A stretch of 61,854 nt of DNA from a virus. The stretch lies in the IMG/VR virus record IMGVR_UViG_3300031277_000002, positions 1 through 61,854 of that record; one strand, written 5' to 3'. A program made the translations under genes and the position numbers. Below are positions 5,694-46,428 of this stretch, piece after piece; positions within the stretch are counted from its first letter, which is position 1; every line of letters begins with the position of its first letter. The notes beneath the pieces are model-generated. The model was not told the DNA's origin, made no database searches, and saw only the letters and a list, made by a program, of their open reading frames with translations.

Positions 5694-6839
5694 ATGAAAG
5701 AAATAATTACGGCTGATTGGCATATTGGACAAACTTCTGATAGTTTTGTTGAAGATAATGGACAAGAAAGATCTATCAATGAAACAGAAAAACAAATGTA
5801 CTGTATTTTGGATTATGCAATAGAAAATAAAATAAAAAAAATAAATATACTTGGTGACATATTTGAAACTCAAAATCCAATAGCTAAACATAATGAAATT
5901 TTTAATAAATTTTTAAAAAAATGTAACAGTTTAGGGATAGAGGTTATTTTAGTTGCTGGAAATCATTGCCAAAATAATTCAGGAGGAGTTTCTTCTATAT
6001 CTCCTGTAAAAAAAATGAATTTTGAAAATATATCTGTTTTCGATGAAAAGATAGATAGTTATACATTTGGTGACATTAATTATATAATAATACCACATTT
6101 AACAAAAAAACAAATGGGAATAGAGAATATAAAAAACTATGAATCTGGTCAAAAAAAATATATAAAAGATGAGGTTTTGAAAAAGATAAAAAAAGATAAA
6201 AAAAATATTATTTTTACTCACATTCATATAAAAGGCGGAGTTATAGGGTCAGAACAAAAAAGATTGAGGGGTGGAATAAATATATTTCCAAAAATATCTT
6301 CAGGTAAAATAGATTTTATTTTTTCAGGACATCTTCATTCTTATCAAACAATTAAAATGGAAAATATAAATTGTTTTTATCCTGGATCAATAACCAGAAA
6401 TGATTTTTCTGAATGCAAAGAGGATAAAGGTTTTATAGTATTTAATAATGAAAAATTGAGCGTTGATTTTGTTAAATTAAAAACAACTGATTATAAAGTT
6501 GTAAGAATAAATTTGATAGAAAAAGGAAATATAAACCTTAACGAAGAAAAAGTAAAAAAATCTGTAAATAAAAAAATAGTTAAAATTGTAATAGATATTT
6601 CTGAAGATAATAAAAAAAGAATAAACTTAGAAGATATAATTAATATTTTTTCTAAATACTGTTTTGTAGCAAAAACCGAAGTAAATGTTATAAAAAAAGA
6701 AATTAAAATTTCAGAGATAAAGTCATATAATCCAATAAATGTTTTTAAATCTCATATAAAAAACAATGTAGAAAACAAAGAGCAAAGAATTTTTGTTTTA
6801 AACAAAGGTGTAGAAATTTTGACGGAGTTGTATAAATGA
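5694..6839 (+). CDS. Mre11/SbcD-like exonuclease subunit (gp47 type)
   Basis: A 381-residue metallophosphoesterase. Metal-binding motifs in order: DWH (8-10), GDIFE (54-58), GNH (89-91), THIH (175-178) and GHLH (212-215). In the family these bind two Mn ions and carry out 3'-5' exonuclease and endonuclease cleavage of DNA ends in complex with the Rad50/SbcC ATPase, whose gene lies downstream. The last 25 bases of the gene are part of a 35-bp sequence repeated just before the Rad50 gene, implying the pair was once directly adjacent. Confidence 0.9.
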   Translation: MKEIITADWHIGQTSDSFVEDNGQERSINETEKQMYCILDYAIENKIKKINILGDIFETQNPIAKHNEIFNKFLKKCNSLGIEVILVAGNHCQNNSGGVSSISPVKKMNFENISVFDEKIDSYTFGDINYIIIPHLTKKQMGIENIKNYESGQKKYIKDEVLKKIKKDKKNIIFTHIHIKGGVIGSEQKRLRGGINIFPKISSGKIDFIFSGHLHSYQTIKMENINCFYPGSITRNDFSECKEDKGFIVFNNEKLSVDFVKLKTTDYKVVRINLIEKGNINLNEEKVKKSVNKKIVKIVIDISEDNKKRINLEDIINIFSKYCFVAKTEVNVIKKEIKISEIKSYNPINVFKSHIKNNVENKEQRIFVLNKGVEILTELYK

Positions 6840-6846
6840 AAATAGA
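6812..6846 (+). repeat. 35-bp direct repeat, copy 1
   Basis: Starts AGAAATTTTGACGGAG and runs through the end of the Mre11-like gene and the first codons of the methyltransferase. It is identical to 7976-8010. The two copies bracket the methyltransferase gene. Confidence 0.95.
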
Positions 6847-7963
6847 TAACTTCATTAAAATGAATTTATTTTCAAATCAAATAATTAATGGTGATGCAAA
6901 ATTGGTTCTTACTAAATTAAAAGATTACTATTTAAATGAAATAAAATGTATTTACATCGATCCACCCTATAATAATGGTGATATATATAACCATTATAAT
7001 GATAAAAAATCTCATGAGGATTGGATTAATGAATTAGAAATTATATTAATAAATTTAAAAGAATTATTAACAAAAGATGGAAGTTTATGGATTTCTATTG
7101 ATGATAAAAACATGCATTATTTGAAAGTTCTTGCAAATAAAATTTTTGGTTTTAATAATTTTATTCACACAATTGTCTGGCAACATAGAACAACAAGAGA
7201 GAACAGAAATATATTTTCAAATAATCATGAATATATTCTTATTTATTCAAAATGTCGTGATTCATTTAAAAAAAGTAGAAACAAAATAATTAACAAAAAT
7301 AACAACTTATCAAGATTTAAAAATTATGACAATGATCCAAGAGGTCCATGGCAATCTGTAACAGCTCATGTACAAGATGGACATGCTGTAAGTTCACAAT
7401 TTTATGAAATTACAGCTCCTAATGGTAAAATTCATCAATTACCTAAAGGTCGTTGTTGGGTCTATTCAAAAGAAAAAATGAAAAAAGAAATTCAAAACAA
7501 TAATATATGGTTTGGAAAAAATGGTACTGGAGTACCTCGTATTAAGTATTTTAAGAAAAAAGATTCTCATTTAGTTACGCCAGAAACTCTTTGGCTTTCA
7601 GAAGATGTTGGAACGACAACAAAAGCAAAAAAACATATTTTAAAATTATTGGGGAAAGATGATATTGTGTTTGATACTCCAAAGCCTGAAGAATTACTTA
7701 ATAGAATTTTAAATATAGCAACTAATGAAGGAGATATTATTCTTGATTGTTTTCTTGGATCAGGAACAACAGCGGCAACTGCGCATAAAATGAATAGAAA
7801 ATATATTGGTATAGAAAAGAATAAAAATGCAGCCCAATACGCTTCTTCTAGGATAACTAAAGTAATTAATGGTGAAGATGGAGGAATATCTAAACTAGTA
7901 AAATGGAAAGGTGGTAATAGTTTTTCATCATTTATTCCATTTGAAAACTTGAATAAAAAATAG
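6836..7963 (+). CDS. DNA adenine N6-methyltransferase (beta-type)
   Basis: A 375-residue DNA methylase. Catalytic motif IV is DPPY at residues 43-46, followed late in the protein (about 302-312) by the SAM-binding LDCFLGSGTT; this IV-before-I order is the beta class, common in type III and orphan adenine methylases. No restriction gene is adjacent, so protection of phage DNA or regulation is the likely role (inference). It interrupts the Mre11/Rad50 gene pair. The start ATG and first codons (MKI) lie in the flanking 35-bp repeat, so its translation start seems borrowed from the Rad50 gene. Confidence 0.9.
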   Translation: MKIDNFIKMNLFSNQIINGDAKLVLTKLKDYYLNEIKCIYIDPPYNNGDIYNHYNDKKSHEDWINELEIILINLKELLTKDGSLWISIDDKNMHYLKVLANKIFGFNNFIHTIVWQHRTTRENRNIFSNNHEYILIYSKCRDSFKKSRNKIINKNNNLSRFKNYDNDPRGPWQSVTAHVQDGHAVSSQFYEITAPNGKIHQLPKGRCWVYSKEKMKKEIQNNNIWFGKNGTGVPRIKYFKKKDSHLVTPETLWLSEDVGTTTKAKKHILKLLGKDDIVFDTPKPEELLNRILNIATNEGDIILDCFLGSGTTAATAHKMNRKYIGIEKNKNAAQYASSRITKVINGEDGGISKLVKWKGGNSFSSFIPFENLNKK

Positions 7964-7975
7964 AATTTAAAAAAA

Positions 7976-8010
7976 AGAAATTTTGACGGAGTTGTATAAA
8001 TGAAAATAGA
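7976..8010 (+). repeat. 35-bp direct repeat, copy 2
   Basis: Identical to 6812-6846. Here it supplies the GACGGAG ribosome binding region and the first codons of the Rad50-like gene, but no longer encodes the Mre11 C-terminus. Confidence 0.95.
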
Positions 8011-10090
8011 AAAAATAATTTTAAAAAATTTTCAATCATTTAAAGAATCTGATGTTGAATTATCAGGAATGAATGTGATTTCTATAGTTGGAAAATATAA
8101 AGGGGAAGAAAGAAGAAGTAATGGATCAGGAAAGAGTACTGTTTTAGACGCTATTTCTTATTCTTTATATGGAAAATCGAGAACAAAAAGAGAAGATGAT
8201 CTTATTAGAGAAAATCAGGATAACATGGAGGTTGAATTATTTATAGAATTAAACAAAAATGAAAAAATGAGAATTGTTAGAGGCAAATTAAAAAACAAAG
8301 GTTATCTTAATTTGTTCATAAATGATATAGATAAAACTTCTGGAAAAATCGAAACTCAAAAAATAATAGAGAACAAAATAGGAATGGATTTTGATTTATT
8401 TGCTGCCACGGTTTTTTTTCAGCAACATGAGTCTGATCAGTTTTCCGGGTCTACACCAACAGAAAGAAAAAATTATTTAAAAAAATTATTAAATCTTTCA
8501 ATTTATGATAAGGCTTATAGAAAAAACTCAGAAGAGATGAAAAAAATTGATGAAGAAATTTCAAAAATAAAAGGTACTATTGATTATTTAAAAGACCAAG
8601 TAGAAAAAATAAATATTAAAGATATCAGTAATCAACTTCTTATTCTTAAAAAAGAATATGATGAATCAATAGGATTTATTAAAAAATTAAATATAAAAAA
8701 AGAAAAGATTCAAAAAGAAAACCAGGAAAGGGTCCAGGTATACGAAAAATATAAAGAAACTAAAGAATCTGTTGAAGAGATTATTGATGAAATTGAAGAT
8801 ATAGATAATGATATAGATAGTTATGATTCGTCTCTTAAAGAATCAGAAGGCGCGTTAAAAATAATTAAAATTTCTTTGGCGACTTACAGCGAAATAGATG
8901 AAAATCAATTAGAGAAAATAAAACTATCAGGTGAAGAAAATAAAATTAAAATTGGAAAATTAGAATCTTGTATAGATAATAATAAAAAAGAAATAAATAA
9001 ACTAAATAAACAAAAAGAAGATATTGCTAATGAAGCAATATGTTCCAGGTGTAATACTAAACTTTCTTTTGAAAAAAAGAAGGAATTTTCAGATGAAAAA
9101 GACAAAGAAATAAGTAAACTAATTTTAGAAAATGATAAAGCGTTGGTGGAGATAAAAAGTATAGAAAAAGTTTTAGAATGTGATAGAGAAAAATATAAAA
9201 AATTAAAAAATCAACTAAATCAAAAAGCAAGCCTTGAAATTGAAGAAAAATCAAAACAAACAGAGATTAAAAGCGTTAAAGAAAATATAAAACAGTTAAA
9301 AACTTCTTTAGAAAAATATAGAGATAAATTATCAAAAAGTGAAGAAAAGTTAAAACAACTAGAAACCAAATTAAAAGATTTTGGAGAAAATAATAATTAT
9401 GAAAAAACAATTAATGATTTAAAAAGACAAATAGAAGATAATGAAAACGACAAAAACACCCTTTTAGGAAAAATAAAAGAACATGAAAGTTTGATTAATA
9501 ATTATGAATCTCAAAAAAAATCATATAAAAACAAAAAATTAAAATATAAAAAATTAAAGTGGGAATATAATTGTCTAAATATTTTGAAAAACGCATTCGG
9601 CAAGAACGGGGTTTCTTCGGATGTAATAAAAGAATCTTTAGAAGAGATATCCAGGGAGGCCAACTTAATACTAAAAGAAATAAATAATGGAGAATATAAA
9701 ATAGTTTTTGAAACAATAAAGGAAAACAAAGATAAAAGTGTATCAGATTCTCTGGATATTTATGTTGAAAATAACCGGGCGTTAAGACTTTATGAGTCTT
9801 ATTCCGGGGGCCAAAAATCAATTATAAATTTTTCAATAAGAATGGCTTTGTCTAAAATTTTAAGTAAATTGAACAATGTAGCATTCGGAATGGTTTGTTT
9901 GGATGAAGTTTTTGGACAACTTGATAGTTTCAATAAAGATAAAATGATTGATGTAATTAATTATTTAAAGCCAACATTTTTCCAAATATTAGTTATATCA
10001 CATTCTGATTTGAAAGAAAGTTTTGAAAATAATTTAGTTATAGAATTTGATAAAAAAAACGGAATAAGTGAGTTTAAGGGGTTTGTATAA
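8000..10090 (+). CDS. Rad50/SbcC-like ATPase (gp46 type)
   Basis: A 696-residue SMC-type protein. Walker A NGSGKS at residues 41-46, then two long Lys/Glu-rich coiled-coil arms separated by a zinc hook CSRC (C348, C351), an ABC signature SGGQKS at about 602-607, and Walker B with catalytic DE at about 635-636. With the Mre11-like nuclease it processes DNA ends for recombination-dependent replication. Shorter than cellular Rad50, as usual for phage gp46. The stop overlaps the next start. Confidence 0.93.
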   Translation: MKIEKIILKNFQSFKESDVELSGMNVISIVGKYKGEERRSNGSGKSTVLDAISYSLYGKSRTKREDDLIRENQDNMEVELFIELNKNEKMRIVRGKLKNKGYLNLFINDIDKTSGKIETQKIIENKIGMDFDLFAATVFFQQHESDQFSGSTPTERKNYLKKLLNLSIYDKAYRKNSEEMKKIDEEISKIKGTIDYLKDQVEKINIKDISNQLLILKKEYDESIGFIKKLNIKKEKIQKENQERVQVYEKYKETKESVEEIIDEIEDIDNDIDSYDSSLKESEGALKIIKISLATYSEIDENQLEKIKLSGEENKIKIGKLESCIDNNKKEINKLNKQKEDIANEAICSRCNTKLSFEKKKEFSDEKDKEISKLILENDKALVEIKSIEKVLECDREKYKKLKNQLNQKASLEIEEKSKQTEIKSVKENIKQLKTSLEKYRDKLSKSEEKLKQLETKLKDFGENNNYEKTINDLKRQIEDNENDKNTLLGKIKEHESLINNYESQKKSYKNKKLKYKKLKWEYNCLNILKNAFGKNGVSSDVIKESLEEISREANLILKEINNGEYKIVFETIKENKDKSVSDSLDIYVENNRALRLYESYSGGQKSIINFSIRMALSKILSKLNNVAFGMVCLDEVFGQLDSFNKDKMIDVINYLKPTFFQILVISHSDLKESFENNLVIEFDKKNGISEFKGFV

Positions 10091-22234: not shown

Positions 22235-23065
22235 ATGAAAAAAGAATTGTCGATTTATTTTAAAGAAATAAATAAAAACAAAACATTAACCAATAATGAA
22301 ATAAAAAATCTTTTCATAAAATTAGAAAAAGAAAAAAATGAAAATAAAATATTAAATATAAAAAATAAAATAATAAAATCTAATTTAAAGTTAGTTGTTT
22401 TTTTTGCAAAAGCTTATAAATCAAAAAGGGTAGATTTTTTTGATTTAATTCAAGAGGGAAATCTTGGATTAATTCATGCTGTAGATAAATTTGATTATAG
22501 AAAAAATATAAAATTTTCAACGTATTGTTTTTATTGGATAAGACAAAAAATTTTAAGATATATAAAAAAAGATTTAAATGTAATTAAAATTCCTATTTGG
22601 GTTATTGAAAAAATTGACACAATTATAAAAAAAGAAAAAGAATTTTTTGATATATTTGGCAGGGAGCCAAGTATTAATGAATTATCTGATTTTTCTAATT
22701 TAGATGAGGGTTTAATAGTAAAAACAAAAGACACAATAAAAGGAAAAAGAGAAATTTCAAGTTTAGATTATTCAGAAAAAGATTGCGGCAGAGCTGTTAT
22801 AGAAACAATTATTGATGAAAAAGAGACTGTTTATGACGTTTTAGAAAAAAAAGAGTTGGGTGATATTTTAAAAAAATCAATAAATGAATTACCAAAAAGA
22901 GAAAAAAGAATTATTCAGTTAAGGTATAATAAGCTAAATGAAAAAATAAATTTCGGTGAAATAGGAGAAATTTTAGGTTTATCTTATGAAAGAATAAGAC
23001 AAATCGAAAGTAAGGCTTTAAATATATTAAAAAACAAAAAAAGAATAAAAGAATTTTGGAGTTAA
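22235..23065 (+). CDS. RNA polymerase sigma factor (sigma-70 family) A
   Basis: A 276-residue group-3/4-like primary-type sigma factor. Region 2 (LKLVVFFAKAYKSKRVDFF, DLIQEGNLGLI, FDYRKNIKFSTYCFYWIRQKI), region 3 (FFDIFGREPSINELSDFS) and region 4 (LPKREKRIIQLRY then GEILGLSYERIRQIESKAL) are all present; region 1.1 is absent. It should redirect host RNA polymerase to phage promoters. A second sigma factor is at 43965. Region 2.4 differs between the two, suggesting different -10 preferences. Confidence 0.92.
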   Translation: MKKELSIYFKEINKNKTLTNNEIKNLFIKLEKEKNENKILNIKNKIIKSNLKLVVFFAKAYKSKRVDFFDLIQEGNLGLIHAVDKFDYRKNIKFSTYCFYWIRQKILRYIKKDLNVIKIPIWVIEKIDTIIKKEKEFFDIFGREPSINELSDFSNLDEGLIVKTKDTIKGKREISSLDYSEKDCGRAVIETIIDEKETVYDVLEKKELGDILKKSINELPKREKRIIQLRYNKLNEKINFGEIGEILGLSYERIRQIESKALNILKNKKRIKEFWS

Positions 23066-24658: not shown

Positions 24659-24910
24659 GTGTTTAGAATTAGAATTACAGATAAAACAGAAGATCAAGAA
24701 ATTATTAAAATGACTGACATTCCTTATAATTCAGTGGCTATAGTTGTAAATAACGAAGATGGTTTTAACGGCCATTATGTAGTTAAGATAAGTAGTAATT
24801 GTTATTTGGATTTAACTGATGGTAATTGTTTGGATCATGCGATTTATGTTTTAGTTAAGCTTTTACCTCCATGTGAAAAAGTAACTGTAGAATTTTTTAA
24901 TGAGGAATGA
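24659..24910 (+). CDS. Hypothetical protein (83 aa), member of a decaying family
   Basis: GTG start with AAAGGAG nine bases upstream. Predicted beta-rich: YNSVAIVVNNEDGFNGHYVV, CYLDLTDGNC, VLVKLLPPCEKVTVEFFNEE. The C-terminal half is duplicated in the start-less fragment at 1282-1422. Function unknown. The 160 bases upstream contain no gene. Confidence 0.55.
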   Translation: MFRIRITDKTEDQEIIKMTDIPYNSVAIVVNNEDGFNGHYVVKISSNCYLDLTDGNCLDHAIYVLVKLLPPCEKVTVEFFNEE

Positions 24911-25960: not shown

Positions 25961-26212
25961 ATGATTATATTTAAAAATAATGGAAATGATTTTTCTGCTT
26001 ATAATGAAGCTATTAAATGGTGTGACGAAAATGGATATTCTTACGGCAGTATGTGCGGAGATTTTCCAATTGGTATAATAAAAGGAGATTATTATATAGG
26101 AAAGTGGAGAAATTTAAACAATAAAGCAAAAAAACGACTAGATGGAGAAATGAAATCAAAAGATTTCAGAAAAGGTGATGTTTATATTGGTTTAAGAATT
26201 AAGAGAATTTAA
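25961..26212 (+). CDS. Hypothetical protein (83 aa)
   Basis: ATG after ACGGGAG. Reads MIIFKNNGNDFSAYNEAIKW then CGDFPIGIIKGDYYIGKW. The first codons share 24 identical bases with the start of the methyltransferase at 28415. No family recognised. Confidence 0.55.
   Translation: MIIFKNNGNDFSAYNEAIKWCDENGYSYGSMCGDFPIGIIKGDYYIGKWRNLNNKAKKRLDGEMKSKDFRKGDVYIGLRIKRI
25970..25993 (+). repeat. 24-bp repeat shared with methyltransferase start, copy 1
   Basis: TTTAAAAATAATGGAAATGA plus TTTT; identical at 28421-28444. Encodes FKNNGNDF in both genes. Confidence 0.85.
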
Positions 26213-28375: not shown

Positions 28376-28414
28376 GTTTTTTATAATTTTTATGTAAATC
28401 GGTGGAGTAAAATA

Positions 28415-29311
28415 ATGACATTTAAAAATAATGGAAATGATTTTATTGATACGAAATACCCAACAAATAAAAATGCTATTATATATAATGGCTCCTGTTT
28501 AGATTTTGTCAAACAAATACCGGGCAAAGCAGTGAAATTAATAATAACATCGCCGCCTTATAATATTGGTAAAGAATATGAAAAAAAAGTAAATTTAGAT
28601 AATTATTATAATGAACAAGAAAAAATTATTGATGAGTGTGTGAGAATTCTTGATGATAATGGGAGTATTTGCTGGCAAACAGGGAATTATGTCAATAAAT
28701 CAGAAATTATTCCATTAGATATTTTATTATATCCAATATTTAAAAAAAACGAACTGAAATTACGTAATAGAGTAATATGGCATTTTGGACATGGTCTACA
28801 TTGTTCAAAAAGATTTTCAGGTCGATATGAAACAATCATGTGGTTTACAAAAAATGATGAATACACATTTAACTTAGATGCAGTAAGAGTTCCACAAAAA
28901 TATCCCAATAAAAAATATTTTAAAGGTCCAAATGCAGGAAAATTATCTTGTAATCCATTAGGGAAAAATCCTAGTGATGTATGGGAGATTCCAAATGTGA
29001 AAAATAATCATGTAGAAAAAACAATTCATCCCTGCCAATTTCCTGTTGAACTAGTAGAAAGATTTGTATTAGCATTAACAAATGAAGAAGACTGGATTTT
29101 TGATCCATATTTAGGAGTAGGAACCTCAATTATAGCGGCAGTTTTAAATAGCAGGAAAGGAATGGGTGCTGAAATAATGGAAGAATATATCAATATAGCT
29201 ATCAAAAGAGTTGACCTTGCTATAAATGGAAATTTAAAAACACGTCCCATTAATAAACCCGTTTATGATCCTCATGATCCAAAAAATAATCTTAATTTTG
29301 AAAAATGGTAA
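28415..29311 (+). CDS. DNA N4/N6 methyltransferase (beta-type)
   Basis: A 298-residue methylase. SPPY (catalytic motif IV, TSPPYNIGKEY) near residue 47 and SAM-binding FDPYLGVGTS near residue 230; the order is that of beta-class amino-methylases. The S-P-P-Y form is found in both N4-cytosine and N6-adenine enzymes. It is not related closely to the one at 6836. The first codons (TFKNNGNDF) share 24 bases with the gene at 25961, suggesting the start was copied at insertion. RBS TGGAGTAA. No restriction partner is visible. Confidence 0.88.
   Translation: MTFKNNGNDFIDTKYPTNKNAIIYNGSCLDFVKQIPGKAVKLIITSPPYNIGKEYEKKVNLDNYYNEQEKIIDECVRILDDNGSICWQTGNYVNKSEIIPLDILLYPIFKKNELKLRNRVIWHFGHGLHCSKRFSGRYETIMWFTKNDEYTFNLDAVRVPQKYPNKKYFKGPNAGKLSCNPLGKNPSDVWEIPNVKNNHVEKTIHPCQFPVELVERFVLALTNEEDWIFDPYLGVGTSIIAAVLNSRKGMGAEIMEEYINIAIKRVDLAINGNLKTRPINKPVYDPHDPKNNLNFEKW
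28421..28444 (+). repeat. 24-bp repeat shared with 25961 gene, copy 2
   Basis: Identical to 25970-25993; lies in codons 3-10 of the methyltransferase gene. Confidence 0.85.
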
Positions 29312-32555: not shown

Positions 32556-32584
32556 TTTATTAATAAGTAATAATGTCGTATATT
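32555..32584 (+). promoter_or_regulatory. Class I phage promoter
   Basis: GTTTAT at 32555, 18 bases, CG-TATATT ending at 32584. The next start codon (32603) lies 19 bases further. Confidence 0.65.
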
Positions 32585-32602
32585 TATTTAAAGGAGTTAA
32601 AA

Positions 32603-36674: not shown

Positions 36675-37358
36675 ATGGAAAAAAAAGGAAAAGATTTTAC
36701 TTCAGCAAGTAAAGAGGATAATGTATATACTCCATATTCTATGGTTGCACAATTATTATTAAATGAAAAATTTGATTATAATAAAAGATTTTTAGAGCCG
36801 TGTTGTGGAAAAAATATTCACCCTGTAGTTGATGTTTTAACAAAACAAAAAAGTAATATTGATATTGATTATTTTGATATTAACTTTGTTGGAGAAAAGT
36901 GTAAAAAAATAGATTTTTTAAAAACAAAAATGTTTGGAAATATAGATTATATAATAACAAATCCTCCTTATTCAAAATTAGATAAATTTATAACAAATGC
37001 AAAGGAAGTGGCAAAAGAAAAATTTGCATTCCTTTGTAAACTAACTCATTTAGGCGGGGTTAATAGATTTAGAGTTGAAACATTTACGGATGAAAATTAT
37101 CCATTAACAAAAATATATTTATTTACCAGGCAAGCTAACATTAAATTCACAAATGATGAGCAAGAAAGACGCGGATATATGCCATATATAAAATTAAGAA
37201 AAGATGGGAAATACCCCGCAGGTATGTATTATTTTGTTTGGTTAATTTTTGAAAAAAATAATACAAATAAACACTTATTAGATGGCCCAATATTTAATTG
37301 GATTAATAATGATGATTATATTTTAAGGAAAGATAAAAGTGGCAAAAAGAAAAAGTAA
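36675..37358 (+). CDS. Adenine-specific DNA methyltransferase-like protein
   Basis: A 227-residue protein: FLEPCCGKN (SAM motif I), acidic FDINF, and the catalytic TNPPYSKLDKF (motif IV), the motif I-before-IV order of alpha/gamma methylases. Compared with full-length enzymes it is short, lacking an obvious target-recognition domain. C-terminus is Lys-rich. Directly follows the membrane peptide gene. Confidence 0.8.
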   Translation: MEKKGKDFTSASKEDNVYTPYSMVAQLLLNEKFDYNKRFLEPCCGKNIHPVVDVLTKQKSNIDIDYFDINFVGEKCKKIDFLKTKMFGNIDYIITNPPYSKLDKFITNAKEVAKEKFAFLCKLTHLGGVNRFRVETFTDENYPLTKIYLFTRQANIKFTNDEQERRGYMPYIKLRKDGKYPAGMYYFVWLIFEKNNTNKHLLDGPIFNWINNDDYILRKDKSGKKKK

Positions 37359-37717: not shown

Positions 37718-38308
37718 ATGGGGAAAGTATTAATTGCTTGTGAAGAGTCTCAAGCAGTAACAATTGAAATGAGAAAAATAGGAATAGATGCTTATTCGTG
37801 CGATATATTACCCTGCAGTGGTGGACATCCAGAATGGCATATTCAGCAAAATGTGATTAAATTATTAAAAGAAAAGTGGGATATGGTTATTGCCTTTCCT
37901 CCATGTACTGATCTTGCAGTTTCGGGAGCTAGATGGTTTGTGGAAAAAAGAGCAGACGGAAGACAACAAAAATCAATTGATTTTTTTCTAAAATTTACAA
38001 ACCTTACTTGTAAATGGGCTATAGAAAATCCGATCGGTATAATGTCTAATAATTATAGAAAACCAGATCAAATAATCCAACCTTGGCAGTTTGGGCATGG
38101 AGAAACAAAAGCTACGTGCTTGTGGCTAAACGGATTGCCGCTATTACAACCAACAAAAATAGTGTCTGGAAGAGAACAGCGGATCTGGAAAATGCCTCCG
38201 GGACAAGAAAGGTCAAAATTAAGATCAAAAACATACCGGGGGATTGCGGAAGCAATGGCGGTTCAGTGGGGAAAATTAATATTAGAAAATGGAGTAAAAA
38301 ATGGTTAA
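37718..38308 (+). CDS. C5 cytosine methyltransferase-like protein
   Basis: A 196-residue protein starting KVLIACEESQ, with SCDILPCSGGHPEWHI and the motif AFPPCTDLAVSGARWF (PPC, the C5-methylase catalytic motif) plus WAIENPIG (ENx). Short homologues in phages are often annotated as cytosine methylases, though a target-recognition domain is missing. Follows TGGAG. Confidence 0.7.
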   Translation: MGKVLIACEESQAVTIEMRKIGIDAYSCDILPCSGGHPEWHIQQNVIKLLKEKWDMVIAFPPCTDLAVSGARWFVEKRADGRQQKSIDFFLKFTNLTCKWAIENPIGIMSNNYRKPDQIIQPWQFGHGETKATCLWLNGLPLLQPTKIVSGREQRIWKMPPGQERSKLRSKTYRGIAEAMAVQWGKLILENGVKNG

Positions 38309-41140: not shown

Positions 41141-41304
41141 TGTTAAAAAATAAAGAAATTTTAAAATTGTTAGAAAAAAATACAGAAGCGATTAGAAACT
41201 TTTATGAAGACGCAAAACAAAGGTTGTCGTTTGAAGAAATGGAACAGCTTGACGGAATTATATATGATTGTCAAAAAATAATGGAAATTGTTGAAAAAAA
41301 TTAA
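41140..41304 (+). CDS. Small helical protein (54 aa)
   Basis: ATG overlapping the preceding TAA by one base with GAGGAGAAATA upstream. Helical, charged (EILKLLEKNTEAIRNFYED). Unknown function. Confidence 0.5.
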   Translation: MLKNKEILKLLEKNTEAIRNFYEDAKQRLSFEEMEQLDGIIYDCQKIMEIVEKN

Positions 41305-41321
41305 ATTTTTTTATAATTTTC

Positions 41322-41350
41322 TGGATTAATTAAACAACATGCACTATAAT
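41322..41350 (+). promoter_or_regulatory. Class II phage promoter with leader hairpin (copy 1)
   Basis: TGGATT, 17 bases, TATAAT in the conserved block ATTAATTAAACAACATGCAC before the -10. Downstream leader has a TAAGG/CCTTA hairpin (41358-41376 region) and the RBS AAGCTTGGGAGGCTT. The same promoter plus hairpin occurs at 44855 and 45934; the promoter alone recurs at 56751. Confidence 0.75.
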
Positions 41351-41402
41351 TATTAATGTAAGGCATTTAATACCTTAACATAAAAAGCTTGGGAGGCTTA
41401 AT

Positions 41403-41630
41403 ATGAGTATAAATGGTATAGTAAAGGGTAAAAAAATAAATTATAGGTTTCATAACATGAGTGGAGAACCTATAGTTATAGATGTAAAAAATAATGGTAA
41501 TGTATTAATAATTAGAGACACGCGAGTTTTTCTTGTGGGAGATGTAATCAGAGTTAAATTATTGCCTGAAGATAAATTTTATCAGGTAATGGAACAAAAG
41601 GGATGTTATATTACTTTATGGTCGAATTAA
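41403..41630 (+). CDS. Hypothetical protein (75 aa)
   Basis: ATG after TTGGGAGG. Beta-rich (VKGKKINYRFHNMSGEPIV, VLIIRDTRVFLVGDVIRVK). No family recognised. The first gene of a class II transcript leading to the peptidase. Confidence 0.6.
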   Translation: MSINGIVKGKKINYRFHNMSGEPIVIDVKNNGNVLIIRDTRVFLVGDVIRVKLLPEDKFYQVMEQKGCYITLWSN

Positions 41631-42821: not shown

Positions 42822-42851
42822 TTTTATTTTTTATTGTTTTTGTCGTATATT
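42822..42851 (+). promoter_or_regulatory. Class I phage promoter (weak -35)
   Basis: TTTTAT, 18 bases, CG-TATATT. The -10 matches perfectly, the -35 has one mismatch. Confidence 0.5.
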
Positions 42852-42870
42852 TATTTAAAGGAAAAAAATT

Positions 42871-43931: not shown

Positions 43932-43964
43932 TAATTGTATTATTTTTGTGGAGAAAAAATTATT

Positions 43965-44849
43965 TTGAAAAAAGAAAAAAACATAATTGATATATATAGA
44001 GACTCAATAACAAAATATGAAAAATCAAATAAAAAAATAACAGAAGATGAAGAAAAAAAGTTAATAGTTTTGGCCCAAAATGGATCAAAAAAAGCTTTAA
44101 ACATAGTTGTAAAAAATAATTTAAAATTAGTAATTTTTTTTGCAAATAAATATAGTTATAGAAATAATATAAAAATATATTTTGATGATTTAGTTCAGGA
44201 GGGAAACCTCGGGCTGATAAAATCAATAAAAAGGTTTGACGCAACAAAAAATATAAAATTTTCAACCTATTCTTCTTTTTGGATAAAACAAAAAATTTTA
44301 AGATATATAAAAAATCAACCATTTAATAATTGCCCATTTAGGATTCCTGTTCACGTTGTAGAAAAAATTATTAAATTTAAAAAAATAAAAAACGAACTTT
44401 TTGTAAAACTTGGGAAAGAACCAACTATACAAGATTTGGCTGATCATACAGGGAAAGACGTATCTTATGTTACAAAAATTTTTGATTATTTATATTCAAC
44501 ACTGTCAATTGATCAAGACAATTCTAATGATTGCGCATTACAAGAAATATTGAATTTGAAATCTGAATCTATAATAGAAGATGAAAAAAACGAAGATGTT
44601 AATGATATAATATATAAAAACCAATTATTGGAAATAATTAATAACGATTTTCCAAAAATATTAAGCGAAAAACAAATAGAAATAATAAAAATGAAATTTG
44701 GAATTTATTATGGGAAAAGTTATACACTTGACGAAATTGGACACCATTTTAAAAACACTAAAGAAGGAATAAGAATGATATTAAAATTTTCTTTTGAAAA
44801 GATAAGAAAAAATAAAAAATTATCAGAAAAACTTAAAGATTTTTTATAA
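43965..44849 (+). CDS. RNA polymerase sigma factor (sigma-70 family) B
   Basis: TTG start at 43965 with GTGGAG upstream; the in-frame TTG at 43935 has no RBS. A 294-residue protein. Region 2 (NLKLVIFFANKYSY, DDLVQEGNLGLIKSI, TKNIKFSTYSSFWIKQKI), region 3 (KIKNELFVKLGKEPTIQDLADH) and region 4 (LSEKQIEIIKMKFGIYY, LDEIGHHFKNTKEGIRMI). It differs from sigma A at 22235 in region 4, so it may read another promoter class. It lies next to the class II promoter units. Confidence 0.92.
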   Translation: MKKEKNIIDIYRDSITKYEKSNKKITEDEEKKLIVLAQNGSKKALNIVVKNNLKLVIFFANKYSYRNNIKIYFDDLVQEGNLGLIKSIKRFDATKNIKFSTYSSFWIKQKILRYIKNQPFNNCPFRIPVHVVEKIIKFKKIKNELFVKLGKEPTIQDLADHTGKDVSYVTKIFDYLYSTLSIDQDNSNDCALQEILNLKSESIIEDEKNEDVNDIIYKNQLLEIINNDFPKILSEKQIEIIKMKFGIYYGKSYTLDEIGHHFKNTKEGIRMILKFSFEKIRKNKKLSEKLKDFL

Positions 44850-44854
44850 AAAAC

Positions 44855-44883
44855 TGGATTAATTAAACACAATGCACTATAAT
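44855..44883 (+). promoter_or_regulatory. Class II phage promoter with leader hairpin (copy 2)
   Basis: TGGATT, 17 bases, TATAAT, then TAAGGTA/TGCCTTA leader hairpin and RBS ACTTGGGAG before the next ATG. Confidence 0.75.
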
Positions 44884-44932
44884 TATTAATGTAAGGTATT
44901 TAATGCCTTAACAAAAACTTGGGAGATATAAT

Positions 44933-45163
44933 ATGATAGTAGTAACAAAAAAAGAACTTATAAGAATAGTAAGAGATGTAATGTCTGGTAGATCAGGTCA
45001 TACTATTGGTAACTTCAGAAGAATTAAAAGAGGCGAATGGGAAGTTGAAACATCAATAGGAAATCAATATCCTTTTGATTCTAATTCTTCAAACTGGGCT
45101 AATTTTAGACATGATAGAAACGAAATGACATTGAAAGAAGCAAAAGAATATATAGATGCATAA
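44933..45163 (+). CDS. Hypothetical protein (76 aa)
   Basis: ATG after ACTTGGGAGATATAAT. Contains IVRDVMSGRSGHTIGNF and YPFDSNSSNWANFRHDRN. First gene of a unit in which a structured RNA follows five bases after the stop. Confidence 0.6.
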   Translation: MIVVTKKELIRIVRDVMSGRSGHTIGNFRRIKRGEWEVETSIGNQYPFDSNSSNWANFRHDRNEMTLKEAKEYIDA

Positions 45164-45734: not shown

Positions 45735-45928
45735 CAGATATTCAAATAAAAAACTGGAAACATTTTATGAATGATCAAATAGAAGAAATAAAAAAACACA
45801 ATTGGATAGAATCTGAAAAGGCAGGACGAGATGTAAGTTGTGTTTCAAATTATGAATGGATAAACAAGTATGCAAAAAAATTCAAAGATGAATGGTTGTT
45901 AAATCATCCAGATGAAAATTTTTTATAA
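45731..45928 (+). CDS. Conserved small phage protein (65 aa)
   Basis: NWKHFMNDQIEEIKKHNW, DVSCVSNYEWINKYAKKFKDEW. This resembles the small protein at 56594 (FMHDQEIEILKY, WIKKYAKKFRNKW), so the two are paralogues and likely belong to a conserved phage family of unknown role. Confidence 0.6.
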   Translation: MTDIQIKNWKHFMNDQIEEIKKHNWIESEKAGRDVSCVSNYEWINKYAKKFKDEWLLNHPDENFL

Positions 45929-45933
45929 TTTTC

Positions 45934-45962
45934 TGGATTAATTAAACAACATGCACTATAAT
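45934..45962 (+). promoter_or_regulatory. Class II phage promoter with leader hairpin (copy 3)
   Basis: TGGATT, 17 bases, TATAAT; near-identical to copy 1, followed by TAAGGTA/TACTTTA and AAGCTTGGGAGGCTT. Confidence 0.75.
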
Positions 45963-46014
45963 TATTAATGTAAGGTATTTAATACTTTAACATCAAAAGC
46001 TTGGGAGGCTTAAT

Positions 46015-46428
46015 ATGAAATTTTATAAGATTGATGGACATTATACTACATATGTATCAATTGATGATACAATACAAGCGACCGTTGAAGATGCAATTAA
46101 TGCAGATTGGTCATTAGATGATATATATGGGTCATCATTGTACGAATATCTTGATGAAAACGGTGAGTTATTAAAATCAGAACTTGATGAAAATCTTGGT
46201 GATTATATTATTGTTTCATATTGGGATGGTAATAATTGGCAACATGATTTTTATGACAGATGTGAGCTTAAAATAGTAGAAGGCGAAGTAATTTCATTAT
46301 CACATCCTTCACCAGCATATTATTTTAATTATGAAATAGCACTAGAAGATGGTGAAAAAATAAAAGTAACCCAATCAAACATGTCTGGATCATTATCACC
46401 TTATTATAGAGAAGATACAGAAGAATAA
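46015..46428 (+). CDS. Hypothetical acidic protein (137 aa)
   Basis: ATG after TTGGGAGG. Acidic (SLYEYLDENGELLKSELDEN, VEGEVISLSHPSPAYY). Unknown function; followed six bases later by the second RNA element. Confidence 0.6.
   Translation: MKFYKIDGHYTTYVSIDDTIQATVEDAINADWSLDDIYGSSLYEYLDENGELLKSELDENLGDYIIVSYWDGNNWQHDFYDRCELKIVEGEVISLSHPSPAYYFNYEIALEDGEKIKVTQSNMSGSLSPYYREDTEE

Follow-up and report, generated by a model that had tools for sequence, protein, structure and literature searches.

A putative orphan methyltransferase gene probably inserted between phage gp47 and gp46 with duplication of their junction

The window analyzed here, the whole 61,854-base stretch of DNA, is a single viral record with no further contigs. 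At the locus of interest, a gene for a gp47/SbcD-like nuclease and a gene for a gp46/SbcC-like ATPase are separated by a predicted orphan DNA methyltransferase gene, and a perfect 35-bp direct repeat flanks the latter (Table 1). The TGA stop codon of gp47 overlaps the methylase start in an ATGA, and the methylase stop is followed by only 12 nt before the second repeat copy, an arrangement that leaves little room for a promoter or terminator of the methylase's own.

Table 1 Features of the gp47-methylase-gp46 locus
Feature	Coordinates	Strand	Evidence or content
gp47/SbcD-like (Mre11-type) nuclease gene	5694..6839	+	PF00149, phrog_100, and TIGR00619 sbcd above cut-off; 47% identity to gp47 of G009, the nearest relative found
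35-bp repeat, copy 1	6812..6846	+	Last 24 nt of the gp47 CDS plus 11 nt (ATGAAAATAGA) starting the methylase
Predicted orphan DNA methyltransferase gene, 375 aa	6836..7963	+	PF01555, PADLOC MTase_III, identity to bacterial homologs
A/T-rich spacer, 12 nt	7964..7975	+	Between methylase stop and repeat copy 2; from sequence
35-bp repeat, copy 2	7976..8010	+	Noncoding remnant of the gp47 end; serves at present as the leader with the ribosome-binding site (GGAG, 7988-7991) and as the first gp46 codons
gp46/SbcC-like (Rad50-type) ATPase gene	8000..10090	+	PF13476, phrog_77 (5e-76); 36% identity to gp46 of G009

What is the gene that separates gp47 from gp46? Its product matches PF01555 (5e-49, 167.6 bits), PADLOC MTase_III (1e-92), and phrog_67, and its DPPY motif (residues 42 to 45) lies before FLGSGTT (residues 306 to 312), which is the beta-class order. 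On these matches, we assign it as a beta-class N6/N4 DNA methylase with a type III Mod-like core. No cognate restriction gene lies near it: it is flanked by gp47 and gp46, the window proteins scanned gave no match to a restriction family, and no D12 methylase was recognized in the window. Because the phage kept one methylase, its role is most likely antirestriction; the enzyme would methylate phage DNA and thereby block cuts by a host restriction system of like specificity.

The first-pass annotation had reported an identical 35-bp sequence on both sides of the methylase gene, and its coordinates were right: AGAAATTTTGACGGAGTTGTATAAATGAAAATAGA occurs as two exact copies, the match between which ends at both edges and cannot be extended by even one base on either side. 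No third copy is present in the window, even with 3 mismatches allowed. In 100 Markov-simulated gp47-gp46 regions, the longest direct repeat had a mean length of 14.8 nt and a maximum of 18, and the expected number of 35-mer pairs is ∼1.6e-10. Since the simulated longest repeat never exceeded 18 nt, a chance origin of the 35-bp repeat is excluded. A longer, decayed duplication running past the 35 bp was considered and rejected: 27 of the next 48 nt match, but the excess runs on into native methylase sequence, and this level of matching is reached by 6 of 1,225 gene-start pairs in the same phage.

The two copies hold different parts of the neighboring genes, as had been proposed. Copy 1 retains the last 8 codons and the stop of gp47, with the ATGA overlapping the methylase start, while copy 2 provides the GGAG, an 8-nt spacer, and the ATG of gp46, whose N terminus is intact (MKIEKIILKNFQSF). 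When the flanks were joined in silico at a single repeat copy, with the methylase and the other copy removed, gp47 ended in ...KGVEILTELYK* and overlapped gp46 (MKIEKIILKNFQSF) by ATGA, both frames being intact. Between the repeats (6847-7975) lie only the methylase open reading frame (ORF) and the 12 spacer nucleotides.

Several other repeats were observed in this phage. A second methylase gene (28415-29311) has a start region that is duplicated from another part of the genome (25961-25993 versus 28411-28444), and its first codons (FKNNGNDF) are common to an unrelated small gene at 25961, with 25 nt exact and 34 nt at 91%. Two further DNA methylases are encoded at 36675-37358 and 37718-38308 (phrog_799 and phrog_757), which brings the phage to four overall. 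A 107-nt leader at 41300-41406, 44833-44939, and 45912-46018 precedes three small genes as a repeated expression module, and it contains a TATAAT-like box, a AAGGTATTTAATACCTT hairpin, a GGGAGG ribosome-binding site, and an ATG. A 22-nt exact repeat, TGTCGTATATTTATTTAAAGGA, lies just upstream of gene starts at 32574-32595 and 42841-42862 and is perhaps a common promoter or leader. Positions 1288-1422 and 24776-24910 are 81% identical over 135 nt; the latter covers the C-terminal portion of a small gene (24659-24910), and the former is an apparently truncated copy, flanked by DnaE and a radical SAM gene (1438-2289), that is possibly the scar of another insertion. The phage also carries two paralogous RNA polymerase sigma factor genes (22235-23065 and 43935-44849) whose DNA is 78% identical over 139 nt.

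Related phages were sought in several scans, all of which depend on short conserved patterns, so that relatives can be missed. Single-protein scans with the methylase, gp46, and RecA returned no relatives, gp46 and DnaE alignment scans returned distant phages only, and a gp47 alignment scan of genome contigs returned nothing. An alignment scan with the major capsid protein (MCP) yielded five relatives, of which only IMGVR_UViG_3300032893_000017 (G009; 97,318 bases) includes the gp47-gp46 region; it is the nearest relative found, with 61% identity to the window in MCP. The alignment of the two gp47 proteins runs to a few residues from the stop (KGVEILTELYK in the window versus KGKEIIEKCL in G009), and that of the gp46 proteins starts at Met1 (MKLLECELKNF in G009). 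From these alignments, native gp47 coding sequence makes up the first 24 nt of the repeat, and native gp46 codons make up its last 11 nt. With both halves native, the 35-mer could have formed only where gp47 abutted gp46, and the two genes must once have been adjacent. By this comparison, the 35-mer copies an ancestral overlapping gp47-gp46 junction, which is the strongest evidence for an insertion with duplication.

The first-pass annotation had named a methylase in all relatives, or a repeat conserved in phages lacking it, as contrary to its reading. In G009, there is no methylase match, the 35-mer is absent, and no repeat longer than 13 nt is found at the gp47-gp46 site; on this evidence, not all relatives carry the methylase, and in this relative the 35-mer is not a conserved element. 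The methylase is thus missing where the flanking genes are syntenic, as expected of a moron. The G009 site is occupied by a 59-amino-acid ORF and a class 3 lipase gene (PF01764) between gp47 and gp46. G009 is too distant to show the original site and has other cargo there, and the collections scanned yielded no close relative whose site is empty; the state before insertion is therefore reconstructed rather than seen.

Where did the methylase come from? Over its full length, it is 57 to 60% identical to its four closest homologs, which are bacterial and come from a Saprospiraceae metagenome-assembled genome (MAG) (L191), a Bacillota MAG (L192), Natronincola (L193), and a Methylococcaceae MAG (L194). 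The best end-to-end phage matches reach ∼30 to 35% identity, and ∼44% is reached locally, over part of the protein only. In all four bacterial loci, the homolog adjoins two genes, one for a D12-type methylase and one for a PLD-type protein, and the PLD-type protein weakly matches an NgoFVII-type restriction enzyme domain in the 3 of 3 loci scanned with Pfam. These loci look like a putative two-methylase restriction-modification operon, as judged from gene content. That the methylase is a late, foreign insertion is supported by its absence from the nearest relative found and by its identity to the bacterial enzymes. On this evidence, the gene is foreign to the phage, and its ultimate descent from a bacterial restriction-modification operon is part of the explanation that we favor. 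Base composition and codon usage were uninformative as marks of foreign origin, since neither GC content nor codon usage of the gene is atypical for this phage; the fit implies either an AT-rich source or time to adapt.

We think it probable that an orphan antirestriction methylase gene was inserted by illegitimate recombination that duplicated the gp47-gp46 junction. An AT-rich tailed phage would have acquired a single methyltransferase gene of ultimately bacterial restriction-modification operon descent, and this gene would have entered where gp47 and gp46 overlap by the 4-nt ATGA. Illegitimate recombination, by end-joining or template switch, would have reentered phage DNA 35 bp upstream of the point of exit and so duplicated the whole junction in one event. 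Copy 1 would end gp47 and start the methylase by translational coupling, and copy 2, formerly coding, would now be the leader that starts gp46. We infer that the strand exchanges took place in this order. An insertion that did not duplicate the junction would harm one of two overlapping genes that the phage needs, so selection can explain the survival of the form that we observe. The insertion appears to be recent, since the 24 noncoding nucleotides of copy 2 show no drift.

The methylase is likely, not certain, to have borrowed its start codon and codons 2 to 4 from gp46. In the Methylococcaceae homolog, K-I-D has the spacing from the conserved core that M-K-I-D has in the window methylase, and the incoming gene may have had a ATGAAAATAGA-like start of its own and recombined there by microhomology. 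If the first codons are the methylase's own, the part that was certainly copied shrinks to 24 nt. The start-codon region is a plausible contact point for recombination. For T4-like phages, recombination of a "semilegitimate" kind at translation initiation regions has been put forward (PMC4177764), and T4 intron homing provides a documented case of illegitimate repair at microhomologies (PMC2988022). In the literature searched, which covered a minority of subscription journals, there was no direct precedent for junction-duplicating insertions in phages.

The first-pass annotation had proposed an insertion by recombination with duplicated ends, as for a mobile "moron" that leaves both neighbors intact and borrows their start codon. 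The duplicated junction and the intact neighbors, with the gp47 end in copy 1 and the gp46 start in copy 2, bear out the first part of this proposal; mobility as an element of its own is not supported by an insert that holds a single gene and no recognized transposase, integrase, or homing endonuclease. The insert has no GIY-YIG, HNH, or LAGLIDADG match and so is not a homing endonuclease cassette, and its borders have no matching inverted ends. A transposon or insertion sequence was rejected on the same grounds, as the methylase ORF is all that the insert encodes. The usual target duplications of transposons are shorter than 35 bp.

Could the same arrangement have arisen in another way? The methylase might have displaced an earlier cargo between gp47 and gp46, with crossing over at the 35-mer or at start-codon microhomology. 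The site evidently turns over, as G009 and many other phages hold different genes here, but the 24-nt gp47 tail directly before the gp46 start in copy 2 requires an ancestor or intermediate with an abutting junction, and a swap of old cargo would leave no such tail unless the duplication already existed; we consider this replacement rather improbable. Somewhat harder still to credit is a reversible cassette, in which phage recombination would delete the methylase precisely at the repeats and a circle carrying one 35-mer could reenter the empty junction, making the methylase an on/off accessory gene. The repeats are perfect, loss at that point restores the ATGA pair exactly, and RecA-like, gp46, and gp47 recombination proteins are among the products of the phage's genes. 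However, no empty variant was found in the viral contigs scanned, and the 35-bp repeats fall short of the ∼50 bp cited for efficient recombination in T4 (PMC4177764).

The repeat spans a Shine-Dalgarno site and start codon, and the phage has other repeated leaders (the 107-nt family), as would fit a conserved regulatory or start-associated element placed independently before both genes, like those of cluster K mycobacteriophages. Yet the window has only the two copies, in copy 1, 24 of the 35 nt belong to the gp47 coding sequence, and the 35-mer is absent from G009 and is matched exactly nowhere else among 2.9 million viral contigs; this explanation is largely refuted and very improbable. It is extremely improbable that the locus is an assembly artifact, in which two sequence variants were joined at a common 35-mer. 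The record is an uncultured viral contig, but contig formation needs both the gp47-methylase and the methylase-gp46 junctions in reads, and the neighboring frames and the methylase are intact in a biologically sensible join.

We also surveyed 51 nonredundant measurable junctions among loci carrying both gp47 and gp46. Thirteen were compact (gap of <40 nt), with ATGA overlaps in L077, L113, and L127; 15 had 70 to 142 nt and 23 had 175 to 1,572 nt between the genes. None of the surveyed junctions held a methylase. Directly upstream of gp47 in L082 (positions 805-2217), from another large phage (IMGVR_UViG_2595698906_000001), lie the two ORFs of a split methylase that belongs to the same broad family. 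Cargo at the same position as the window methylase and the G009 lipase included RecA (L087), a 3'-5' exoribonuclease-like protein (L049), a ferritin-like protein (L059), an HNH endonuclease with NUMOD4 (L085), and otherwise unnamed ORFs. These are different genes from the methylase, and only L066 and L074, relatives of Staphylococcus phages, show a comparable though shorter start-site repeat, of 17 to 18 bp, that spans the Shine-Dalgarno site and ATG and flanks an inserted ORF of ∼125 amino acids. Flanking repeats in the other insert-bearing loci measure 6 to 10 nt, lengths that are judged by comparison within this set only, as a wider background estimate is confounded by homologous loci. The L066/L074 repeat is a weaker, possible parallel, as part of it overlaps constrained sequence.

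How does the locus compare with known systems? Like orphan antirestriction methyltransferases of phages such as the Vequintavirus adenine methyltransferase and the Campylobacter phage type III Mod-like enzymes, it has, in a phage replication region, a single type III Mod-like/N6_N4 gene that lacks a cognate nuclease. Unlike them, it lies between gp47 and gp46 with the junction duplicated, and its product is ∼30% identical to theirs and far closer to the bacterial proteins. It shares with the putative bacterial operon of PLD-type nuclease, D12, and Mod-like methylase a full-length Mod-like protein, including the C-terminal GGISK...W...GG motif, whereas the phage keeps this methylase only. As with morons and other cargo genes, a lateral gene has been added between two conserved genes with no harm to either; in contrast to morons, the methylase appears to use its neighbors' translation signals by coupling and leaves a 35-bp duplication. 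The repeat resembles the start-associated sequences of cluster K mycobacteriophages (PMC3203893) in spanning a ribosome-binding site beside a start codon but differs from them in having two copies, mostly coding in one, and no genome-wide family.

Methylases are encoded by more than a third of gut phages and are mostly close to bacterial ones (PMC10477858). Captured methylases are ordinary and common in phages; what is unusual here is the intact duplicated translational junction. In phage genomes, where genes are tightly packed and frequently overlap, it is a puzzle how new genes enter without breaking old ones. This locus would keep a readable scar of one solution, in which the overlapping junction was duplicated and the extra copy became the start signal of the next gene, and it links a bacterial restriction-modification methylase to phage capture. 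The gp47-gp46 overlap could even be a general phage landing site for accessory genes, where entry by recombination duplicates the overlapping start, harmlessly and in a precisely reversible manner while the repeats stay identical; we hold this to be unlikely, and if it were true, reversal would fall to the phage's own recombination system. Our data suggest gp47-gp46 as a recurrent cargo site that is open to systematic survey.
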